From Pirellula sp. (lineage in GTDB: Bacteria > Planctomycetota > Planctomycetia > Pirellulales > Pirellulaceae): a stretch of 44,296 bases of DNA. Positions 1 to 9,285 of this stretch are shown here, one piece after another (position 1 is the stretch's first letter; the number at the start of each line of letters is the position of its first letter). The notes beneath the pieces were generated by a model that had not been told where the DNA came from, made no database searches, and was given only the letters and a program-made list of their open reading frames with translations. The position numbers and the translations under genes are program-made. The stretch is taken from positions 1-44,296 of the forward strand of contig JALOQZ010000003.1 in the NCBI GenBank assembly GCA_025459245.1. The letters run 5' to 3'.

Positions 1-69
1 AGACTCGTCCGCTAACCCATTCGCTGATGGCCATACTCGGGAGGTTTACTTCTAACGCGTGTGCGATAA

Positions 70-906
70 CTAAGGTTTTCGTGGATTGGCAGGGGCATTG
101 GGGTTGTTCGCAGGGGGCTGCCCAAATGGATCTGCGGCAGGATTCGCGCCAGGATTGGCACCTGGATTGACTCCTGCTGGCATGGGCCCGCCTGCTGGAT
201 TCGGAAATGCTGGTCCGACTCCTGCTGGCTTCTTGGGATCGTTCTTGTTGGCATTCGGTGGATTGACTGGTTTCTTGACTCCGCTTTGGGGTTCGCGAAT
301 TTGACCACCGCCGACCGGGATCATCGCCCCACCCTGCATCGCACTCGAGCTTTCCAAGGTACGGTTCCACGGAATCGTGTAGGCGGCAAAAAATCCGCTC
401 TTGGTGTCGACCACGTAGACCAAACAAGCAGCGGGTCGGATGTTGCTGCCGGCAGAGACTGGCTCGGCGGCCCCGGTGATCAATAGATACTCAGGATTCT
501 TGCTCATCCCCAACTGGGCCTGAACGTTGGTATAGAACATCCCTCCGAACGCTCCTTGGCGCGGGTAGTAAACCCAGCACTTCAAGTCGCCGGTCAAAAA
601 GTCCAATGCAAAGAAGCCTTCGGAACTTTCATCGATCTGGCCGGTCGCAATCGCTAGATTGGCCCCGCCATGCGTTGCAGATGCCTGCAGCAACTCAGCG
701 GGAACTCGGTCGCGAGGAATGCCATTCCAATCCCCCGACTGCTCGGCGAATCGTTCGTCAATTGCCGTTAGCCTTCCAATCCCGTATCCGACTCCCGCGA
801 TGGCTGCGAGGGATAGACCAAGAACAATTCCTTTTGCGAAAGGAGTCCATCGGCAGCATGCCCTTGCTGTCGGTTCACCGTCCAAGATTGGTAATCGATT
901 CATCAT
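70..906 (-). CDS. Membrane-anchored protein of unknown function, Pro/Asn-rich tail
   Basis: The 278-residue product has a short cytoplasmic N-terminus and one hydrophobic segment at about residues 25-47 (GIVLGLSLAAIAGVGYGIG). A globular part at about 70-190 follows, with the phrases 'GGANLAIATG' and 'FALDFLTGDLKCWVYYPR'. The last 70 residues or so are low-complexity Pro/Asn/Gly/Ala. There is no cleavable signal peptide, so a single-pass anchor with the globular part outside the cytoplasm is likely. From memory, similar proteins are common in planctomycetes and have no assigned function. Two consecutive ATG codons open the frame; the upstream one is taken. It lies 187 bp downstream of the kinase/Hsp70 gene on the same strand and could be co-transcribed. 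Function unknown. Confidence 0.75.
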   Translation of the reverse strand: MMNRLPILDGEPTARACCRWTPFAKGIVLGLSLAAIAGVGYGIGRLTAIDERFAEQSGDWNGIPRDRVPAELLQASATHGGANLAIATGQIDESSEGFFALDFLTGDLKCWVYYPRQGAFGGMFYTNVQAQLGMSKNPEYLLITGAAEPVSAGSNIRPAACLVYVVDTKSGFFAAYTIPWNRTLESSSAMQGGAMIPVGGGQIREPQSGVKKPVNPPNANKNDPKKPAGVGPAFPNPAGGPMPAGVNPGANPGANPAADPFGQPPANNPNAPANPRKP

Positions 907-1093
907 TTCCGCCTACCCTTGTTTTATGTTCCTATGGGTCTACGAACCTAGCCCCAAACATGTAGCCGATCGTCCAAAAGTGCTTCCATGCCAGGGGCAG
1001 CCGATGGAGCTTTGCTATCCTGCTCAGTTTAGCGAATACGAAGTCTGCCGTAGACCCCAACCGCTAATTTTTGGTTTAGCCTGTGGGCGATCT

Positions 1094-3724
1094 TCAACCG
1101 TTGCAAAGCATCAAAGATTCGAGCCAATCGCCCCACTGTCGAATGGAAACGACATCCATCAGAGGTTCGTTGAGCGGGGAAACGGGGATTTGGTTGTTCC
1201 CCCCTGGCCAAATCACGATCCCCTGCCAAAAACCACTTTCGTCGACCTCCAACCTCAACTGAAGTGGATCGGACGAACGTCGACCTGAGAAGCATGTCTG
1301 CAGATCCACTCGCCCAAGCTTGTTCCAGGTCGTATTCCCCAACCGCGATCCTTCGACGAATTGCAGCACCGGTTGCCTCTCCCCCTCTTTCGAGAACCGG
1401 AGCGTTCGGCTGACTTGATGTGGTAATGGTTTGTCTCGGGGGATCAAGATGCGAGGAGCTGACACGCCGTTCGCATCTTGCATGACGACTCCTAGATCAT
1501 AGGCCGTGCTCGAAACCGCATGAGGTGAATCGGTGTCCATGGGAGGCATCAAATACTCGGCTTGAATGGCCGCACCTCGGGCAATGTGAGTTGACTTGAG
1601 CGGTATCAACGGAACTTTGGGCCCTGCCACTGCCGCTAACGCGTTCTGGATTCCGGGATACCATCGCGCATCCCCAAGCAGCAGGACTGCATCAAAGCCA
1701 CCCGCCTCGATTCCCGCACGCTCGGCCGCTTCTTTGGCGTAAGCCCCGCAATCGAAAGCCAGTTCATCGACCCACTCGTCGGGTTGATTTCGGTCCAGTT
1801 TCCCCTCGAACTTCCCACCGGGAACTTCGACGATGAAAGGAACAGCCGCGGCGGAACGCATGCGCTCAAACGTTCTCTCCACCGTTCGCTGAATGCGGGA
1901 CGCAATCCCTCGGTCCTCACGCGCACTGACTCCATGCCGTTTCTCTAGCTCCGTTGCGATCTTCTTCGCCATGCGATCATGCCATCGGACCATGCCGCGA
2001 CGCCAATCTCCGGCCGTTGTAATCAGTTGCACTTTCAAGCCGTCGACTTTCACCACGGAGACTTCACAGGACGAACCGCTGAGCATGGCGACGAGGAAGG
2101 TACGTCGATAGACATCGTCCGAGGATGCCTTGGCCAAACGGGAGTCGATCTCGACGTGCGCCAACGTTGCAGCCAAAGGCTTTTCAAGCAACTGCAGCAG
2201 CTCAATTCCAGCGATCGAACAAGCGGTCTTGGTGCTGCATCGGTGCATCTGGTCGTAACATGCAGGTACTGTCACAACCGCATGGGAAGCGCTCGGCAAA
2301 ACGTGCCGCGTTGCATTCACCATCTGTCGGATGACAGCGGCCACCAATACCTCGGGAGGAACTTGCCTACCTCCGAAAGGACGCTCGAGCAACGGCAATC
2401 CATACCATCGCTGCATCCCGTAAAAGATGTGATCAGGTTTACTCGCTCTGAGCTCGGCAGCCTGCGATCCCACTGCGATTTGCTCTCCATCGCTATAGAG
2501 CATGTTGCGAAGCGTATACGACTCTCCGTCTACCGGCACCTCCTCTACTTTGTGTTCCCGATCGATATAACTTACTCTCGAACGGATCATCCCCAGTTCA
2601 ATTCCAATCGCCGCCAACTGCCGCTGTGACGTCGAGGGTGCCAGCCCAAAGTCGGTGGGCCGGATCGGCGAAATCTTCGGCAGTACGGACTCTCCTTGCC
2701 TCGATGATGGCTCCTGCCCGTCGATCAAATTTAATCGATGCAGTTTATCCACCAACTCCGCTGCCGATTGCAATCGTTCATCGGGATTCTTAGCAACCAA
2801 CGACTGGAACACCGAATCCAACCGTATGTCGACATCTGCACGAACTTCATACAACGCCGGCGGACGGCGGTGGACTTGCGCTAAAGCGGTCTGCACCAAT
2901 TCTCCGGAAAACATGGGCCTACCGGTCAACAAATAAAACACCGTAGCCCCGAGCGAGTACAAATCGCATCGATGATCCACTCGGTCGGGTGCATTGATCT
3001 GTTCGGGGGCCATAAATTCGACGGTCCCGACAATCTGAGAACGGCTGCGGCTGTTACCGCTTTCCATGCGATCTCTCAATACTGCCAACCCAAAATCGAG
3101 AATCTTCAGCGTCCCGTTTGGAGTGAGCATCATGTTGCTGGGTTTGATGTCGCGATGGATGATGCCCAGCGAATGAGCATATTCCAATGCCGATGCCGCT
3201 TGTATCAAAACATCGACAACGCCCTGGGTCGACATCGGGCCCGATTGAGCGATCCTTTGGGAAAGCAAATCTCCACGAATCAACTCCATAACCAAATAGT
3301 GCACCTGGGTGTTACCTGCGTTATGGCACCCCGCGTCAAAAGCGGTGACGATATTGGGGTGCATCAGCTTTGCTGTCGCTCGCACTTCTCCGTAGAAACG
3401 CTCGCGGGCAACAGCGTCGTGGGACATCGCTTGGGGGAGAATCTTCAATGCGACTTCGCGATCCATCGTCCGGTGCTTGGCCCGAAAGACTTGTCCCATC
3501 CCTCCGGCTCCGATCCGTTCCAGGATCTGATACTCGCCGAGGACAGGAACGGTAAGTTGCAACTCGTTGCCAGCGCGATCCAACGCAATAATCCCCGGCT
3601 GCAATTCGAATTCTCCCGAATCCTCATTTCCCCCTTCGCTCAACGCGTGCAAATCGATCTCCTGCGTCACGGCTGGGCGACGAGCAGGACGCGGCGAATT
3701 GGGGTCAGACGGACGATCGGACAT
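1094..3724 (-). CDS. Ser/Thr protein kinase fused to a degenerate Hsp70-like region
   Basis: The 876-residue product begins with a Hanks-type kinase domain at about residues 64-335: Gly loop IGAGGMGQV (71-79), Lys94 in VALK, HRDIKPSN with Asp192, DFG at 210-212 and an APE motif near 239-241. After a linker, residues about 370-745 follow the order of an Hsp70 ATPase domain ('AAIGIELG', 'HAVVTVPACY', 'AGIELLQLLEKPLAATLAH'). The final ~130 residues resemble an Hsp70 substrate-binding sandwich ('ILIPRDKPLPHQ', 'LRLEVDESGFW'). The Hsp70 phosphate loops are altered: IGIDLGTT reads IGIELGMI, and DLGGGT reads MLSGSS. ATP turnover by that half is therefore doubtful. I chose the ATG at 3724. The same frame extends to a TTG at 3808, but that part is low-complexity and neither start has a clear ribosome binding site. 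No transmembrane segment is seen, so the protein is probably cytoplasmic. Confidence 0.9.
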   Translation of the reverse strand: MSDRPSDPNSPRPARRPAVTQEIDLHALSEGGNEDSGEFELQPGIIALDRAGNELQLTVPVLGEYQILERIGAGGMGQVFRAKHRTMDREVALKILPQAMSHDAVARERFYGEVRATAKLMHPNIVTAFDAGCHNAGNTQVHYLVMELIRGDLLSQRIAQSGPMSTQGVVDVLIQAASALEYAHSLGIIHRDIKPSNMMLTPNGTLKILDFGLAVLRDRMESGNSRSRSQIVGTVEFMAPEQINAPDRVDHRCDLYSLGATVFYLLTGRPMFSGELVQTALAQVHRRPPALYEVRADVDIRLDSVFQSLVAKNPDERLQSAAELVDKLHRLNLIDGQEPSSRQGESVLPKISPIRPTDFGLAPSTSQRQLAAIGIELGMIRSRVSYIDREHKVEEVPVDGESYTLRNMLYSDGEQIAVGSQAAELRASKPDHIFYGMQRWYGLPLLERPFGGRQVPPEVLVAAVIRQMVNATRHVLPSASHAVVTVPACYDQMHRCSTKTACSIAGIELLQLLEKPLAATLAHVEIDSRLAKASSDDVYRRTFLVAMLSGSSCEVSVVKVDGLKVQLITTAGDWRRGMVRWHDRMAKKIATELEKRHGVSAREDRGIASRIQRTVERTFERMRSAAAVPFIVEVPGGKFEGKLDRNQPDEWVDELAFDCGAYAKEAAERAGIEAGGFDAVLLLGDARWYPGIQNALAAVAGPKVPLIPLKSTHIARGAAIQAEYLMPPMDTDSPHAVSSTAYDLGVVMQDANGVSAPRILIPRDKPLPHQVSRTLRFSKEGERQPVLQFVEGSRLGNTTWNKLGRVDLQTCFSGRRSSDPLQLRLEVDESGFWQGIVIWPGGNNQIPVSPLNEPLMDVVSIRQWGDWLESLMLCNG

Positions 3725-4000
3725 GTCGGTCACGAATGGCGAAAGGGAGGAATGTCGGATCTGAAGGGGCGAAGTCACAAGTCCCTCAGGAGTCCCCTCT
3801 GTCCTCAATAATCACTTCGATTCAGGCGGAAAAAAGGCAAAAAACGTTCAATTTGGCAACAATCTGCCTCCCCGTTGGCGGTCGTGAGGCATTCTCAGAA
3901 TCGTTCGCCTGGCCGCCAGCCCAATTCCCCGCTTGCCCCCACACCCCGCGTCTGTCTATCCTCCCGCCACTCCCTTCGAATCGCACGTCAGGATGGCGTC

Positions 4001-4675
4001 ATGGAAACCTCCCTACACCGAGAACTCAAAAAACTGTACGCCGCCTCCCCCGACGCGATCGAAGTGGCCGAGTCGAACTATCGTATCGACGCAATCGACC
4101 GCTCAGGTGCTCTCGTCGAAATCCAACACGCGGGCCTCGGAATCCTCCGCCGAAAAATCCTCTCACTCCTTGAGGATGGCCATCGAATCCGCATCGTGAA
4201 GCCTTGGATCGAGCGGAAAACGATCGAGACCTACGACAAGAAATCGGGCGAGCTTCTTCGCAAACGAAAAAGCCCCAAGTCTCAGCGTCCCATCCAGTTT
4301 TTTGGCGAACTGATCCACTTCACTCAAGTCTTCCCACATCCTCGCCTTTCGATCGAGATCCTCTCGGTCGAGTGCGTTGAGCGCCGCATCGATACGCCCA
4401 GAAAGGGACGGCGAAAGCAATACAAATCGCTCGACGTCGCGCTGGCCCAAACCCCTGACCCTAAAACGGCCACCCAGCTCCGTACGACAAAAGACCTCTG
4501 GAAACTCATGGGGCGCCCAAAACTGCCGAAAACATTTGACACGATGGAGATTGCGCAAGCCATCGGCGAACCTCGCTGGCTCGCCCAGCAAATTGCCTAT
4601 GTCCTAAGCCGCTGTGGTGCCACCGAACAACACTCCAAACGGGGCAACGCGATCGTCTACCACCGCGCCGCTTAA
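4001..4675 (+). CDS. Unknown protein, possible PD-(D/E)xK-like core plus C-terminal helical domain
   Basis: The product is 224 residues from the ATG at 4001. The frame is open upstream, but that part is low-complexity. I do not recognise a named family. Residues 1-70 have a restriction-nuclease-like order: a helix with Glu8, a strand pair with Asp30 and Asp33, then LVEIQ (Glu40-x-Gln42), followed by a basic helix 'ILRRKILSLLEDG'. Some PD-(D/E)xK enzymes carry ExQ in place of ExK. The middle is Lys/Arg-rich. The C-terminal ~60 residues ('FDTMEIAQAIGEPRWLAQQIAYVLSRCG') look like a winged-helix DNA-binding unit. It is divergent from the kinase gene and 95 bp upstream of the helicase gene on the same strand, so a nucleic-acid role is plausible but inferred. 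Confidence 0.7.
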   Translation: METSLHRELKKLYAASPDAIEVAESNYRIDAIDRSGALVEIQHAGLGILRRKILSLLEDGHRIRIVKPWIERKTIETYDKKSGELLRKRKSPKSQRPIQFFGELIHFTQVFPHPRLSIEILSVECVERRIDTPRKGRRKQYKSLDVALAQTPDPKTATQLRTTKDLWKLMGRPKLPKTFDTMEIAQAIGEPRWLAQQIAYVLSRCGATEQHSKRGNAIVYHRAA

Positions 4676-4770
4676 ACCCCGAGCAATCCACCCCTTGGCG
4701 CTCTCTACATTCCCGCGCCTGCGTGTTAGTCTAATGGACACGACCCATTCTCCCCCGGTAGCCGCTGCTC

Positions 4771-6855
4771 ATGACTCCCCTCGACATTCAATCCATTCTC
4801 GGACCGGAAGGGAGGATTGCGCGCCGAATACGCAACTACGAGCACCGACGGGAACAATTGCAAATGGCCGATGCGGTGGCAAAGGCATTGCGGGATGGCC
4901 ATCACCTCGTCGTCGAAGCCGGAACCGGGGTCGGAAAGAGCTTTGGCTACCTCGTCCCGGCCATCCTCTTCGCCACAGAAGCGGAAGGGCTCATCGATGA
5001 CACTCCAACTCGCCGTCTTTCTCGGAAAGATCAAGACGAACTCGATGGCTCGGAGAAAGAGGAGTCAAAAATTCGCCGGGTGATCGTCAGTACGCACACG
5101 ATCAGTCTTCAAGAACAATTGGTCGCCAAGGACTTGCCACTCCTCAAATCGGTTATCCCTCGCGAGTTCACCTCTGTCCTAGTAAAAGGTCGGGGCAACT
5201 ACTTGTCCAAACGCCGACTTGGACTGGCGATCAGCCGCGCATCAAGCTTGCTGCAAAACGACCGCGATTATGATCAGCTTGAACAGATCACCGCTTGGAG
5301 CAAAGACTCTCACGAGGGGTCCCTCAGCTCGCTTCCGTTCAAACCGAGCATGTCGGTGTGGGATGAGATTGCAAGCGACTCAGGTAATTGCATGGGGCGA
5401 AAGTGCCCGAAGTTTAATGAATGCTTCTACTACGCCGCCCGCCGTCGCATTCACAATTCTCAGATCCTCGTCGTGAATCATGCTCTCTTTTTCAGCGACT
5501 TGGCCCTGCGGTCGCAAGGAGCTGGAATGCTCCCAGACTACGATGCGGTGATCTTTGACGAATCCCATACCATCGAGTCGGTCGCCGGCGAACACTTAGG
5601 GCTACAGATCAGCAACGCGCAGATCGATTACACCCTTCGCAAACTCTACAACCCTCGCAACGAAAAAGGGATCCTGTCGGCTCTGGGACTGCAGACGCTG
5701 TCGCGAGAAACGTATCGATGTATGGAGGCGCTCGATCAACTCTCCGAAGATCTCCTCTCCTGGCTTGCTACTTCCACCGCCGGCAATGGGCGTGTCCACG
5801 ATCTCCTCGATATACAAACCGAATTACCGGTCTTCCTTCAGTCTCTTTCCGAACAATTAGAGCGTTTTGGCCAAGACTTGAAGAATGCAAACGATCGTCT
5901 GGAATTGATGTCCGCCAGTAAACGTCTCACCGCTCTGGCAAACAGTCTTGACCAATGGCTGAAACAGAAAGAGACCGACGCCGTTTACTGGCTTGAGAAA
6001 AGCGAGTCGCGAAATCAGCATGGGCGCGGTGCGACGCGAGTAACGATGCGGAGCAGCCCCATCGACATTTCGAAGCATCTGAGAAAGACTTTGTTCGATA
6101 AAGTGCGAACAGTGGTACTCACCAGTGCGACACTTTCGACCAGCAAATCTCAAGGGTTCCAGTTCTTTCAAAAGCGAATCGGTGCCGACAAAGCGACAGC
6201 GCTCCAAGTTGGCAGCCCCTTTGACTACAAGCGACTGGCGAGGCTTGAACTGGTTACCGATCTCCCGGATCCCTCCCAAGACAAAGCCAATTACGAACGG
6301 ATGATTCTGCCGACCATACGGCATTACATTGCAGCCCGAGATGGCCGCGCGTTTATCTTGTTCACCAGCTACGATATGCTGCGAAAGACCTGCGAAGCCC
6401 TCCGGCCTTGGATGCAGGAGCGCGGCTTGACCGTCTATTCCCAAGCCGATGGTACGCCTCGCACCCAACTTCTTCAGGACTTCAAAGCCAACCCAAAAGG
6501 TGTCCTCTTCGGCGCGGAAAGCTTCTGGCAAGGGGTCGATGTTCCGGGAGACGCTCTCCAATTGGTCATTATCAGCAAACTACCCTTCAGCGTTCCCGAC
6601 CACCCGCTCCTCGAAGCCAAGCTCGAGGACATTCGACGTAAAGGGGGAAACCCGTTCCGCGATTACCAACTGCCCGAAGCGGTAATTAAATTCAAGCAAG
6701 GATTCGGAAGATTAATTCGAACCGCGACCGACTCCGGCGTTGTCCTAGTCACCGACCCGCGGATTGTGACCAAACCGTATGGCAAGCTCTTTGTCGAGTC
6801 ACTGCCGGATTGCCAAGTTATCCATGTTCGGGCCAAGACAGAAGACTTGAGATAA
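4771..6855 (+). CDS. dinG: DinG/XPD-family ATP-dependent DNA helicase
   Basis: This 694-residue superfamily 2 helicase would unwind DNA 5'-3' by analogy with DinG and XPD. Walker A is AGTGVGKS (50-57), motif Ia 'VSTHTISLQEQL', and the DEAH-type box is DESH (263-266). 'VLTSATLS' and a C-terminal motif VI 'QGFGRLIR' follow. Cysteines 207, 212 and 218 match three of the four Fe-S ligands of DinG, including the 5- and 6-residue spacings. The expected first ligand in 'KGRGNYLSKRRL' is Ser146. A charged ~30-residue insertion lies between Walker A and motif Ia (about 72-102). ATG at 4771 is used. The stop lies 22 bp before the cca start, in the same direction, suggesting an operon. Confidence 0.9.
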   Translation: MTPLDIQSILGPEGRIARRIRNYEHRREQLQMADAVAKALRDGHHLVVEAGTGVGKSFGYLVPAILFATEAEGLIDDTPTRRLSRKDQDELDGSEKEESKIRRVIVSTHTISLQEQLVAKDLPLLKSVIPREFTSVLVKGRGNYLSKRRLGLAISRASSLLQNDRDYDQLEQITAWSKDSHEGSLSSLPFKPSMSVWDEIASDSGNCMGRKCPKFNECFYYAARRRIHNSQILVVNHALFFSDLALRSQGAGMLPDYDAVIFDESHTIESVAGEHLGLQISNAQIDYTLRKLYNPRNEKGILSALGLQTLSRETYRCMEALDQLSEDLLSWLATSTAGNGRVHDLLDIQTELPVFLQSLSEQLERFGQDLKNANDRLELMSASKRLTALANSLDQWLKQKETDAVYWLEKSESRNQHGRGATRVTMRSSPIDISKHLRKTLFDKVRTVVLTSATLSTSKSQGFQFFQKRIGADKATALQVGSPFDYKRLARLELVTDLPDPSQDKANYERMILPTIRHYIAARDGRAFILFTSYDMLRKTCEALRPWMQERGLTVYSQADGTPRTQLLQDFKANPKGVLFGAESFWQGVDVPGDALQLVIISKLPFSVPDHPLLEAKLEDIRRKGGNPFRDYQLPEAVIKFKQGFGRLIRTATDSGVVLVTDPRIVTKPYGKLFVESLPDCQVIHVRAKTEDLR

Positions 6856-6872
6856 CAGAGACTTGAGATAAC
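6843..6872. repeat. 16-bp direct duplication at the dinG-cca junction
   Basis: The 14-mer AGACTTGAGATAAC occurs at 6843-6856 and again at 6859-6872, a period of 16 bp. The first copy carries the dinG stop codon (TAA at 6853-6855); the second fills the spacer just before the cca ATG. It looks like a simple slippage duplication. Confidence 0.85.
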
Positions 6873-6877
6873 GCAGC

Positions 6878-8227
6878 ATGCCTGTTTGGAACGAATCATC
6901 CGACTTATACCAGTTCGCGCGCGACATTGTCTCGCGTCTACAGAGAGCGGGATATATCGCCTACTTCGCTGGCGGCTGTGTCCGCGACGCTTTGATGGGC
7001 AATCCACCCAACGATTACGATGTTGCCACCAGCGCGAGGCTGGAGCAAGTCATCGAACTCTTCGGCCCAAAGAATACGCTGGCGATCGGTGCTGCGTTCG
7101 GAGTCGCTTGTGTCCATCGGCGAATCCATGGCCAGCGTTATCAAGTCGAAGTGGCAACGTTTCGTTCTGATGGTACGTATAGCGATGGCCGGCACCCCGA
7201 TTGGGTTCGATTTTCACGTCCCGAGGAAGATGCTCAGAGAAGGGACTTCACCATCAATGGAATGTTTTTCGACCCGATCGCAGGTGAGCTCAAGGATTAC
7301 GTCGGGGGAGCGAGTGATTTAGCGGCGAAGCGGATCCGAGCCATTGGAGAAGCCGATCATCGTATCGAAGAGGACAAGCTTCGGATGTTGCGAGCGGTGC
7401 GCTTCGGTGCACGATTTGGTTTTGATATGGATCGCGAGACGGCGGAAGCGATCCAGAGGCATGCCAAAGAGATCTTGGTTGTGAGTGGTGAGCGGATTGC
7501 GGCAGAGATGTCCAAACTTTTCGAGACTGCCAAACGGAGTTGGGGGATTCTTGAATTGCATCGTTTGGGGCTTCTGGCTTATTTGTGGCAGGAGTTAGAG
7601 CAACGGTGGCGTGACGACCCGGAGCGATGCGAAAGAGCGGGTCGGTGGCTTGGAGCGTTGAGGAGTGAGCTTGATAGCGAAAGCACGATGGCGGCTTCGA
7701 TGGCGTTGCTTTGGTTGTCATCGCAGTCTGGGGGTGGATGTGCATTGGAGAAAGGGGAGGCGAAGGGAATCGTGCAAGCGATTCAGTCGCGGTGGAAGCT
7801 GTCGAATCGGGTGGTTGAGCAAGCGATTTTCGCGATGAGCCATGTGGTGGAGTTGCGGGACGGATCGGAGTTGCCTTGGTCGGTAATCCAGCCGATTTTG
7901 ATTTCGGAGCACGCCAGGGTTGCGGTCGAAGTCGCATCTGCGGTGGTCGAGAGCGAGGGGGTGGCCGCACAAGGAGTAGAGTACTGTCGTGCGGCGCTCG
8001 AGCGACCTAGGGAGGAGCTCAATCCGCCCCCGTATTTGACCGGTCGGGACTTGCACATAGCGGGATTACGACCTGGTCCTCTTTTCGCGGAACTTTTGCG
8101 AGAAGCGAGGGTTTTGCAGCTCGACGGCGGTTTGCAAAGCCGTGAAGCCGCCCTCGACTGGCTCTCGGGCCACCCCAGTCTCCCCCGTGAACGGCACGGG
8201 CGCAAGCCCTCCGGTGACCCCCCATGA
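6878..8227 (+). CDS. cca: CCA-adding tRNA nucleotidyltransferase (class II)
   Basis: The enzyme completes or repairs the 3'-CCA of tRNAs. The 449-residue product has the class II head: AGGCVRD (31-37), the metal-binding pair Asp46 and Asp48 in NDYDVAT, RRDFTINGM (121-129) and 'RAVRFGARFGF'. A helical neck/body and a C-terminal region follow. An A-adding or poly(A) polymerase relative cannot be excluded. It starts 22 bp after the dinG stop, just past a 16-bp duplication. The last ~15 residues (…RERHGRKPSGDPP) are encoded by the first of three 38-bp repeats, and the stop codon lies in the second. The natural C-terminus may therefore have been extended by repeat insertion. The tRNA-Arg gene downstream has no encoded CCA, which fits a need for this activity. 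Confidence 0.92.
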   Translation: MPVWNESSDLYQFARDIVSRLQRAGYIAYFAGGCVRDALMGNPPNDYDVATSARLEQVIELFGPKNTLAIGAAFGVACVHRRIHGQRYQVEVATFRSDGTYSDGRHPDWVRFSRPEEDAQRRDFTINGMFFDPIAGELKDYVGGASDLAAKRIRAIGEADHRIEEDKLRMLRAVRFGARFGFDMDRETAEAIQRHAKEILVVSGERIAAEMSKLFETAKRSWGILELHRLGLLAYLWQELEQRWRDDPERCERAGRWLGALRSELDSESTMAASMALLWLSSQSGGGCALEKGEAKGIVQAIQSRWKLSNRVVEQAIFAMSHVVELRDGSELPWSVIQPILISEHARVAVEVASAVVESEGVAAQGVEYCRAALERPREELNPPPYLTGRDLHIAGLRPGPLFAELLREARVLQLDGGLQSREAALDWLSGHPSLPRERHGRKPSGDPP

Positions 8228-8294
8228 ACGGCACGGGCGCAAGCCCTCCGGTGAGCCCCTTGTGAGCGGCACGGGCGCAAGCCCTCCGGTAACC
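8186..8294. repeat. Three tandem 38-bp repeats with GNRA-loop hairpins
   Basis: Units begin at 8186, 8224 and 8262, an exact 38-bp period. The conserved core is GGCACGGGCGCAAGCCCTCC. Each core can fold as GGGC-GCAA-GCCC, a stem capped by a GNRA tetraloop, with flanking CAC/GTG able to pair across an asymmetric bulge. The first unit is translated as the cca C-terminus and the second contains the cca stop codon. There are no unique spacers, so this is not a CRISPR array. From memory the motif recurs in planctomycete genomes; this was not checked. Confidence 0.9.
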
Positions 8295-8386
8295 ACCGTC
8301 CCGCATGGCTCCAAGTTTGGCTCTTTTTTCAGGGCTAGAAAATTCTCGGCGACCGCGTACAATTCGGCCTGTTGGACCACCAACAT

Positions 8387-8460
<74 letters not shown>

Positions 8461-8461
8461 T

Positions 8462-8483
8462 TTGGGTTTTACCCAATTTTTTT
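8462..8483 (+). terminator. Intrinsic terminator after tRNA-Arg
   Basis: The stem TTGGGT (8462-8467) pairs with ACCCAA (8471-8476) across a TTT loop and is followed by seven T residues (8477-8483). It lies 2 nt past the tRNA 3' end and would end transcription of the tRNA and of any read-through from cca. Confidence 0.8.
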
Positions 8484-8943
8484 CTTGGTCGGACGCCACT
8501 CTTCGGCGTTCCGAGATTCTCTCCGAGTTGGGTCTAGGAGATTTCAATACACCGAAATCGGGTTTTCCCTCCCGGATGCCCAAGCCACCGAAGCTTGAAT
8601 CAGTTGATGGAGCTAAGTGACATCACTGGTCTGTCGCGATGGGATTTCGAATCTTGAAAAAGAGGCCGATGATCTCTCGCTCACGCGTCGGGTTGGGATA
8701 GTCATCTGGTGATGAAAGACTTCGTTCGCCATCCATTCACGTCCAACCTGCTTGCTACCTCACCTAATCGCTCCTCTGTTGCATGCGAATAGGAGCGAGT
8801 TGTCTGAAGGTCTGTCGTTACCGGATGTAAGATCGACCGAAAGAAGTAGTCGGTGCATCTTCTTGCTCGCATGCGGCTCTCTGGCCGCCATTTTGCGTCC
8901 CCTCGAGCGATAGGCTTGCAGGGAATTACCCCCGCATGACCGA
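8484..8943. other. Gene-free stretch with one likely dispersed repeat fragment
   Basis: No convincing gene is seen. A minus-strand open frame at 8702-9091 has an irregular Cys/Arg-rich composition and overlaps the more plausible small membrane-protein gene, so it is not called. The segment 8671-8697 (GATCTCTCGCTCACGCGTCG and following) resembles, from memory, a short repeat scattered in Pirellula-group intergenic DNA. Only this copy is visible here, so the assignment is weak. Confidence 0.4.
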
Positions 8944-9285
8944 TCAAACCCAAAGTCCTCCGAATCCGCCTAAACAACGAATCGCATAAAGGACGGACGC
9001 AATGGGAACGTAAAGGACCAGAACGAACAGCAAAGTCCTGCTGGTGAAACTTCTTTGTGAAAACACTAGTACATACATAACAGCGACGCATAAGACTGCG
9101 AGAGGGTCTGATTGGTTGAGCAAATACCTCAAGTAGTCATAAACCGAGAACGCGAAAAAACCGAGAAGCCCGTCTATGCTGCTCGAATAGGATGGTTCTA
9201 TTGCAAACAGAATCAAGCTGGGTGCGTGGATAGCAATGGCAGCCGCGCAAATGACAAGAAGCGGTTGCATCGCCTTGGTGCTCAT
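8944..9285 (-). CDS. Small putative polytopic membrane protein
   Basis: The frame encodes 113 residues from ATG, strongly hydrophobic, with three to four likely membrane spans at roughly residues 7-29, 38-56, 61-78 and 85-106. It ends in 'LGGFGGLWV'. Hydrophobic periodicity separated by short polar loops argues for a real protein. No ribosome binding site is clear and the surroundings are repeat-rich, so a degraded or orphan gene remains possible. No family is recognised. Confidence 0.5.
   Translation of the reverse strand: MSTKAMQPLLVICAAAIAIHAPSLILFAIEPSYSSSIDGLLGFFAFSVYDYLRYLLNQSDPLAVLCVAVMYVLVFSQRSFTSRTLLFVLVLYVPIASVLYAIRCLGGFGGLWV

Follow-up and report, generated by a model that had tools for sequence, protein, structure and literature searches.

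A planctomycete protein kinase joined to an Hsp70 whose nucleotide-site residues are replaced: a putative pseudo-chaperone fused to an apparently active kinase

The stretch of DNA analyzed here (hereafter the window) comprises 44,296 nucleotides from Pirellula sp. (assembly GCA_025459245.1, contig JALOQZ010000003.1), a member of the planctomycete family Pirellulaceae. Close to its start, one gene encodes a protein in which a Ser/Thr kinase domain is followed by an Hsp70-like half (Table 1); initiation at an upstream TTG at 3808 would give a product of 904 amino acids (aa). An earlier interpretation made without database searches (hereafter the sequence-only reading) described a Hanks-type kinase with its catalytic residues joined to an Hsp70 region, and this description held, with Pfam recognizing both halves in one frame and the kinase residues invariant among relatives. 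The best 19-residue hydropathy mean of the protein was 1.36 (across 62 fusions the median of this value was ~1.4 and the highest 1.92), and the protein therefore has no clear membrane span.

Table 1 Features of the kinase-Hsp70 fusion gene and its surroundings in the window (pLDDT, predicted local distance difference test; SBD, substrate-binding domain).
Feature	Position	Strand	Details and basis
Kinase-Hsp70 fusion gene	1094..3724	(-)	876 aa; ATG at 3724, stop 1094-1096
Disordered N-terminal tail, residues 1-58	3551..3724	(-)	pLDDT <50, predicted; contains Thr20
Kinase domain, ~residues 65-331, full catalytic set	2732..3532	(-)	Pfam, invariant residues, predicted fold
Disordered linker, residues 336-368, PTD/PTS...STS motif	2621..2719	(-)	Alignments, model
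Hsp70 nucleotide-binding-domain fold, ~residues 371-727, nine core nucleotide/phosphate residues replaced	1544..2614	(-)	Pfam, alignment, model
Ex-phosphate loop 1, IGIELGMI, residues 373-380 (E376 = DnaK D8; M379 = T11)	2585..2608	(-)	Alignment
Q438 at DnaK Lys70 position	2411..2413	(-)	Alignment
VTVPACYDQMHR, residues 484-495 (P487 = DnaK Pro143, R495 = Arg151, both retained)	2240..2275	(-)	Alignment
K515 at DnaK catalytic Glu171 position	2180..2182	(-)	Alignment
Ex-phosphate loop 2, VAMLSGSSCEVS, residues 545-556 (M547 = D194; E554 = D201)	2057..2092	(-)	Alignment
Ex-adenosine motif, LLLGDARWYPGIQ, residues 681-693	1646..1684	(-)	Alignment
SBD-beta-like sandwich, ~residues 735-848	1181..1522	(-)	Alignment, model
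C-terminal helix, residues 858-875 (first helix after DnaK SBD-beta; no further lid)	1100..1153	(-)	Alignment, model
278-aa protein, no Pfam match	70-906	(-)	After fusion, same strand
266-aa protein, no Pfam match	3875-4675	(+)	Upstream of fusion, divergent
tRNA gene, Rfam RF00005	8387-8460	(+)	63.5 bits; sole Rfam match in window 1-9000

The kinase half scored 167 bits against Pfam Pkinase (PF00069; cut-off 31.7, E 6.4e-49). We compared it across alignments of 31 degenerate fusions (A1) and 44 mixed fusions (A2), a further alignment (A3) holding 28 degenerate fusions; degenerate copies are those whose Hsp70 nucleotide motifs are replaced, as in the window, and intact copies those that keep them. 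G74, G75, G77, K94, E113, H190-R191-D192, K194, N197, D210, and G212 were invariant in A1 and A2, and G72 was invariant in A1 and conserved at ≥90% in A2, leaving the glycine loop, the VAxK lysine, the C-helix glutamate, HRD, the asparagine, and the DFG aspartate all present. The kinase is thus apparently active, to judge from its residues. PknB-type PASTA kinases (NF033483) were its best NCBIfam match, but at 273 bits against a cut-off of 450, with no PASTA domain in Pfam and no clear membrane span. In PADLOC, the best 25 of 34 matches all covered the kinase domain, where many profiles of the anti-phage kinase PD-T4-6 and of other kinases matched alike; these matches are generic and point to a kinase and nothing beyond. 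Outside the domain, Thr20 was retained in most aligned relatives and nearly invariant in A2, making it a possible autophosphorylation site, and the linker threonines T357 and T365 were each conserved at ≥90% in A1. Variants of the kinase half also occur: in a Pirellula staleyi-labelled assembly (L059:7668-11426), a tandem pair of kinase domains precedes a degenerate Hsp70 in a 1253-aa frame, and in five degenerate fusions (L157, L158, L164, L151, and L171) the best match to the window kinase spans only about half of the domain, which hints at inserts within it.

The Hsp70 half is equally recognizable as to family. In the same frame as the kinase, Pfam HSP70 (PF00012) scored 115.4 bits (cut-off 20.6, E 2.9e-33, profile positions 95-478), and a phmmer search of the last 518 residues against the PDB matched chains of DnaK and BiP (best E 8e-26); in these matches the N-terminal phosphate loop aligned only as a separate, weak segment (i-Evalue 14 alone). 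When the protein was aligned with the DnaK of its own genome (L001), none of nine core nucleotide/phosphate residues was retained: DnaK T11, K70, E171, D194, and G198 are replaced by M, Q, K, M, and S, and T199, G229, K271, and G342 by S, M, F, and D. Site numbers follow E. coli DnaK, and in Hsp70s the nine sites serve to bind phosphate, metal, or adenosine. The degenerate motifs quoted in the sequence-only reading proved exact (in context, IGIELGMI, VAMLSGSS at 545-552, and LLLGDARWYPGIQ), and the same alignment, with all nine sites changed, excludes intact phosphate loops at shifted positions.

Other canonical features of DnaK are absent as well. Besides the nucleotide motifs, the protein lacks the hydrophobic interdomain linker with Asp393 (the window protein reads SPHAVSSTAY where DnaK has its hydrophobic linker, which is not conserved) and a full SBD-alpha lid. 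Past SBD-beta, the fusion ends in a single helix that can be aligned to DnaK up to residue 527, presumably helix A, and the remaining lid is missing. The proposal of a pseudo-chaperone therefore stands as to the degenerate active site and fails as to a complete pair of nucleotide-binding and substrate-binding domains. Within this truncated half, tryptophans are strictly kept among degenerate copies, with Trp800 of SBD-beta invariant in A1 and A3, and W864 and W867 of the C-terminal helix invariant in A1. Judged from sequence, these data support reading the window protein as an apparently active kinase with a pseudo-ATPase Hsp70 attached to it.

The loss of the nucleotide site extends across a clade, as the conservation survey suggested in the sequence-only reading now shows, and the clade-wide recurrence of the degenerate motifs rules out a chance or misread motif. 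Among the first 36 degenerate fusions, 33 keep none of the nine core residues and three keep one, whereas all nine are kept in 19/19 intact fusions and in 41/41 stand-alone Hsp70-like proteins; the fusion counts hold partly by definition, since visual inspection of these very motifs had assigned the fusions to the degenerate (36) or the intact (19) group, while the stand-alone proteins were recognized by the absence of a kinase match. A further 78 degenerate loci were picked by profile score, and the kinase is in frame with Hsp70 in 77 of them, the exception (L283) being a fragment. Together, the degenerate copies number 112 distinct sequences, of which 104 keep 0/9 residues and eight keep 1/9; four of the sequences have gaps at 1-3 sites, L283 is included, and L297, an intact protein from outside, is left out.

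The replacements themselves follow a pattern. At the E171 position, all 111 scorable degenerate copies carry a basic residue (Arg in 70, Lys in 41), and at the D8 position all 111 carry an acidic one (Asp in 84, Glu in 27); the D201 position holds Glu in 93, Asp in 18, and Asn in one of the 112 copies. Met occupies the T11 position in 99/111 scorable copies. Arg151 is retained in 111/111 and Pro143 in 109/111, K271 is retained in 0/112, and 2/109 scorable copies have kept the second adenosine-motif Gly. The invariably basic residue at the former Glu171, together with the acids retained at positions 8 and 201, points to a possible buried salt bridge taking the place of nucleotide and metal.

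Between the intact and degenerate states lie three fusions (L150, L155, and L167) that keep seven or eight of the nine core residues and carry Lys at DnaK Thr199; in L150 and L155 the C-terminal end resembles that of the degenerate clade (RWREWVETVMLC). Two odd fusions keep eight (L165) and three (L166) core residues. Among scanned examples, HSP70 Pfam scores fall in step, from 381-392 bits (L163 and L042) through 253 (L150) to 115-120 (the window, L048, and L166).

The intact-ATPase fusions of the same family (e.g., L042, L046, and L133) share the domain order, a related kinase, and a lid-less Hsp70 of the same group, and differ from the degenerate form in keeping 9/9 core residues (19/19 fusions); the 11 aligned in A2 also carry a different N-terminal extension. 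A tree built from 102 Hsp70 halves separated the 36 degenerate copies from all others by a branch with a Shimodaira-Hasegawa approximate likelihood ratio support of 100, with the three intermediates adjoining them (87). This branch is long (1.18), and the tree, made with a short search, included the altered columns and an N-terminally cut DnaK row, had long branches flagged, and left out two fragments (L036 and L068) and L004. The kinase-domain tree, which is free of the altered Hsp70 columns, placed the same 36 on one side of a branch with support of 94, marginally below the program's mark of 95 (L059 was represented by its best domain, and non-fused kinases below 150 bits were left out). The degenerate copies therefore appear, from both trees, to be one clade with an apparent single origin of inactivation. 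The history of the fusion itself is less simple: in the kinase tree, the 58 fusions other than L163 and L172 need three changes and two non-fused kinases fall among the fused ones, and a single fusion event is thus possible but not established. L163 and L172 look independent. In the Hsp70 tree, the 19 intact fusions need six changes and are intermixed with stand-alone Hsp70s.

To map the distribution, we searched 241 genomes of the family with a profile built on 28 degenerate Hsp70 halves, scoring up to six candidates per genome and counting genera by hand from the resulting table. The degenerate form was found in 113 of the 116 genomes from 15 genera, 111 by best match and two (G420 and G494) as pieces divided by contig ends; a partial match in G478 (330 bits) was counted by genus and frame, and sequence reading confirmed it as degenerate. 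No copy was found in G439 (99% complete), G315 (97%), or G495 (66%), and some losses within these genera look real. Among the matches listed for the remaining 53 genera, represented by 125 genomes, none of the best matches lay in the degenerate range, although a fragment behind an intact match could escape; the highest (336 bits, in G348) belongs to L051, a stand-alone protein with intact motifs. Among 196 genomes from the same order, of which at least 35 belong to the family, no match outside the family exceeded 348 bits, the score of an intact stand-alone protein in G583. The ten nearest aligned relatives from named assemblies (Pirellula and other planctomycetes) were 62-67% identical to the window protein, and degenerate fusions occur in the genome of Rhodopirellula sp. 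SM50 (a 971-aa frame that also matches the kinase) and in G474 (977 aa). Among the family genomes whose long frames were read, degenerate and intact kinase fusions were never seen side by side in one genome. Some such genomes hold further long Hsp70 frames with no kinase match (L152, L156, L160, and L211), and in the window's genus an additional degenerate fusion, longer than the first and with 0/9 core residues, occurs in two genomes (L231 in G431 and L232 in G441; 1185- and 1160-aa frames, respectively).

The Hsp70 half is under strong purifying selection, as judged from sequence comparison: the ratio of nonsynonymous to synonymous substitution rates (dN/dS) in seven close degenerate pairs ranged from 0.025 to 0.120 in the Hsp70 half and from 0.016 to 0.135 in the kinase; a further two pairs, both involving the window, were saturated at synonymous sites and excluded. 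These low ratios rule out gene decay, and the internal stops flagged in G504, G390, G481, and G335 all follow the usual C-terminal Trp helix. A decaying or chimeric gene, with an Hsp70 half left over as a relic or created by misassembly, is accordingly highly improbable and is refuted by the conservation data, given the low dN/dS and the single frame in 77/78 further loci from many genomes, despite the long branch to the degenerate clade and the three genomes of carrier genera without a copy, one of them incomplete.

The prediction of an actin-ATPase fold C-terminal to the kinase was upheld by structural modeling. AlphaFold gave a mean pLDDT of 84 and a predicted template modeling score (pTM) of 0.63 for the whole protein, and values of 92 and 0.92, respectively, for the Hsp70 half alone, so that an actin-like nucleotide-binding domain followed by an SBD-beta is confidently predicted. 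In Foldseek, this model matched DnaK and BiP, most closely the ATP-state or AMPylated, docked structures 6asy, 5e84, 4jn4, 4b9q, and 5nro (TMq 0.85-0.86, root-mean-square deviation (rmsd) 3.3-3.6 Å), the fold match to ATP-state chains spanning 538-549 columns. TMq was lower for ADP-state or undocked structures (2kho 0.56, 1yuw 0.58, 2v7y 0.59), with "stimulating" DnaK forms in between (0.70-0.72). VIA-align, which rescored the Foldseek list only and would miss families absent from it, returned Z of 44-45 for several docked chains of DnaK and BiP and Z of 42 for Sse1. These comparisons support, at the level of a model, an Hsp70 half docked in an ATP-like state.

The surroundings of the gene vary. 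The 278-aa protein that follows the fusion has, by eye, a hydrophobic N-terminal segment and a proline/asparagine-rich tail, and it also follows the fusion in L054 and L055; relatives of the 266-aa protein adjoin the intact fusions L169 and L170 on the opposite side, in another genus. A long helicase-like gene (named by eye) lies divergently upstream of the window fusion. Elsewhere, a HemC-like gene (by eye) is divergent upstream in 12/17 loci of one sub-clade (the 17 include two short ones of 4.5 kb), six loci of the window's genus group have a transglutaminase-like gene upstream (Pfam on L067), and a PP2C phosphatase adjoins L007. Evidence from conserved neighbors is thus weak. In other families of the order, tandem Hsp70-like genes are common, one lid-less and ~520 aa long and the other ~670-820 aa; in L300:2104-5943 (G612) and L301:1557-5888 (G541) the longer one ends in a strongly hydrophobic, membrane-anchor-like stretch, and both genes of L300 show intact ATPase motifs by eye. 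Such pairs may represent a membrane-tied Hsp70 with a soluble twin.

What might an inactivated chaperone do for a kinase? Most likely, it is the kinase's sensor or docking part. We tentatively prefer, while granting it somewhat less than an even chance, a soluble, cytosolic kinase carrying a nucleotide-independent sensor module derived from Hsp70, in which the chaperone has permanently left its ATP cycle. Metal and nucleotide would give way to a buried Lys/Arg-acid salt bridge that keeps the two lobes closed on each other, and SBD-beta would sit docked, as it does in ATP-bound Hsp70. This fixed, lid-poor module could then bind a polypeptide or partner fast and weakly, in the manner of Ssz1 (discussed below); binding would gather the kinases or release them, leading to autophosphorylation (perhaps on Thr20 and the linker threonines), which might inform downstream targets of proteotoxic stress or of a given client's condition. 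In a bolder and rather unlikely form, the Hsp70, locked ATP-like by the Lys/Arg-acid bridge, would be a nucleotide-independent receptor for unfolded polypeptides that switches its own kinase, a one-protein counterpart of chaperone-gated stress kinases.

Several observations weigh against such a sensor. The peptide-groove residues of SBD-beta look altered by eye, and the salt bridge is read from conservation alone. The docked models are of degenerate sequences only, and AlphaFold may dock any lid-less Hsp70; VIA-align gave Z of 38.2-41.7 to other docked forms (7krt, 5e84, and 6asy) and 40.3-40.6 to the "stimulating" 7kru and 7krv (rmsd 5.6-5.7 Å), and its Z alone does not separate the states well. 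Since the N-terminal tail and the linker are disordered, the mutual placing of kinase and Hsp70 is not fixed by the whole-protein model, in keeping with its low pTM. The fusion is absent from G315 and G439 despite their near-complete assemblies and is therefore dispensable. No shared operon or conserved partner was found across the loci read (many short, with most neighbors unscanned), and the fusion thus looks like a stand-alone signaling gene. Finally, a stress study of Rhodopirellula baltica names, in its accessible part, a few kinases as induced, none of them recognizable there as the fusion gene (PMC2754498).

A role in partner docking that involves no stress sensing accounts for these data almost equally well. 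The pseudo-Hsp70 might be a docking scaffold by which the kinase reaches a fixed partner or substrate (a protein, a ribosome, or an Hsp70 client complex), with the kinase controlled by other means. We regard this as possible if somewhat doubtful. Loss of the ATPase cycle suits a static role, the clade-specific invariant tryptophans could form an interface, and neither the interdomain linker nor D393 is conserved, the latter being retained in 0/36 degenerate and 0/19 intact fusions. Retention of SBD-beta and of the Pro143/Arg151 pair, which we take to serve interdomain signaling in Hsp70s, goes beyond what a simple scaffold needs, however, and the intact sisters of the same layout suggest that the ancestral module cycled.

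An unlikely alternative borrows from Hsp110, a nucleotide exchange factor that retains ATP binding and its ATP-binding residues: the pseudo-Hsp70 would pair with a true Hsp70, and the kinase would phosphorylate that Hsp70, a co-chaperone, or a client. The divergent Hsp70 Hsp110/Sse1 ranks high in the structure comparison (Z 42) with a similar overall arrangement, and the genome itself encodes DnaK, a 580-aa Hsp70-like protein with intact motifs, a 603-aa Hsp70-matching frame, and two J-domain proteins. Nevertheless, the residues of the window protein do not support the ATP binding that Hsp110 keeps, the rmsd to Sse1 (4.5-4.7 Å) is larger than that to ATP-state Hsp70, Sse1 has no kinase, and no close intact relative of the fused Hsp70 is listed in the genome (82% complete).

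It is also improbable that the Hsp70 half is a metabolite sensor, binding a nucleotide or small anionic ligand in a rebuilt pocket with the new Lys/Arg contacting the ligand. Actin-fold proteins are versatile, and a basic residue is strictly kept in the former phosphate site, but both phosphate loops are altered, K271 and the second adenosine-motif Gly are almost wholly lost (0/112 and 2/109), and the kept acids beside the basic residue suggest an internal bridge instead.

The closest analogue to the preferred sensor reading comes from the fungal ribosome-associated complex, whose Ssz1 is, in the accessible part of the source, a lid-less Hsp70 that does not hydrolyze ATP and binds nascent chains transiently through SBD-beta (PMC7083937; described as a non-canonical Hsp70 that binds polypeptide also in the portion seen of PMC9197937). 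Ssz1 is an analogue at most, sharing the lid-less form and related to the window protein only via the Hsp70 superfamily, and as these partial sources describe it, Ssz1 differs in binding ATP, pairing with a J protein, and having no kinase. Ssz1 still binds ATP; the window protein, if it binds none, therefore goes one step further.

The architecture itself is not new. Krupa and Srinivasan (PMC1262709), in 2005, listed a kinase plus HSP70 for gi|32474490 of Pirellula sp. (Rhodopirellula baltica), a planctomycete kinase that, like the window protein, has C-terminal Hsp70 homology; the listed protein probably belongs to the degenerate clade. The part of that paper available gives the architecture alone, with no lost ATPase residues, intact sisters, origin, or spread. 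The sequence-only reading knew of no described mechanism for such a fusion; this agrees with the literature searched, except that the architecture had been reported. Within that literature, which covered few subscription journals, we found no paper on an inactivated kinase-Hsp70 fusion; a term search of a Ca. Uabimicrobium kinase paper (PMC11032199) gave no mention of Hsp70, and the parts seen of two conflict-system papers (PMC8195603 and PMC7159879) bring up Hsp70 in different contexts. Relative to the literature searched, what looks new is thus the inactivation, together with its apparently single origin and its conservation.

Pseudokinases and pseudophosphatases are well studied. A bacterial protein in which an apparently live kinase is tied to an Hsp70 without a nucleotide site, and which has been kept over 15 genera, would clearly represent a pseudo-chaperone signaling module. 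With intact, intermediate, and dead forms all surviving within a single family, the passage from a chaperone cycle to a fixed sensor or scaffold can be traced residue by residue, and the strict Glu-to-Lys/Arg swap offers a sharp, testable prediction of how an Hsp70 may be held in its ATP state without ATP.

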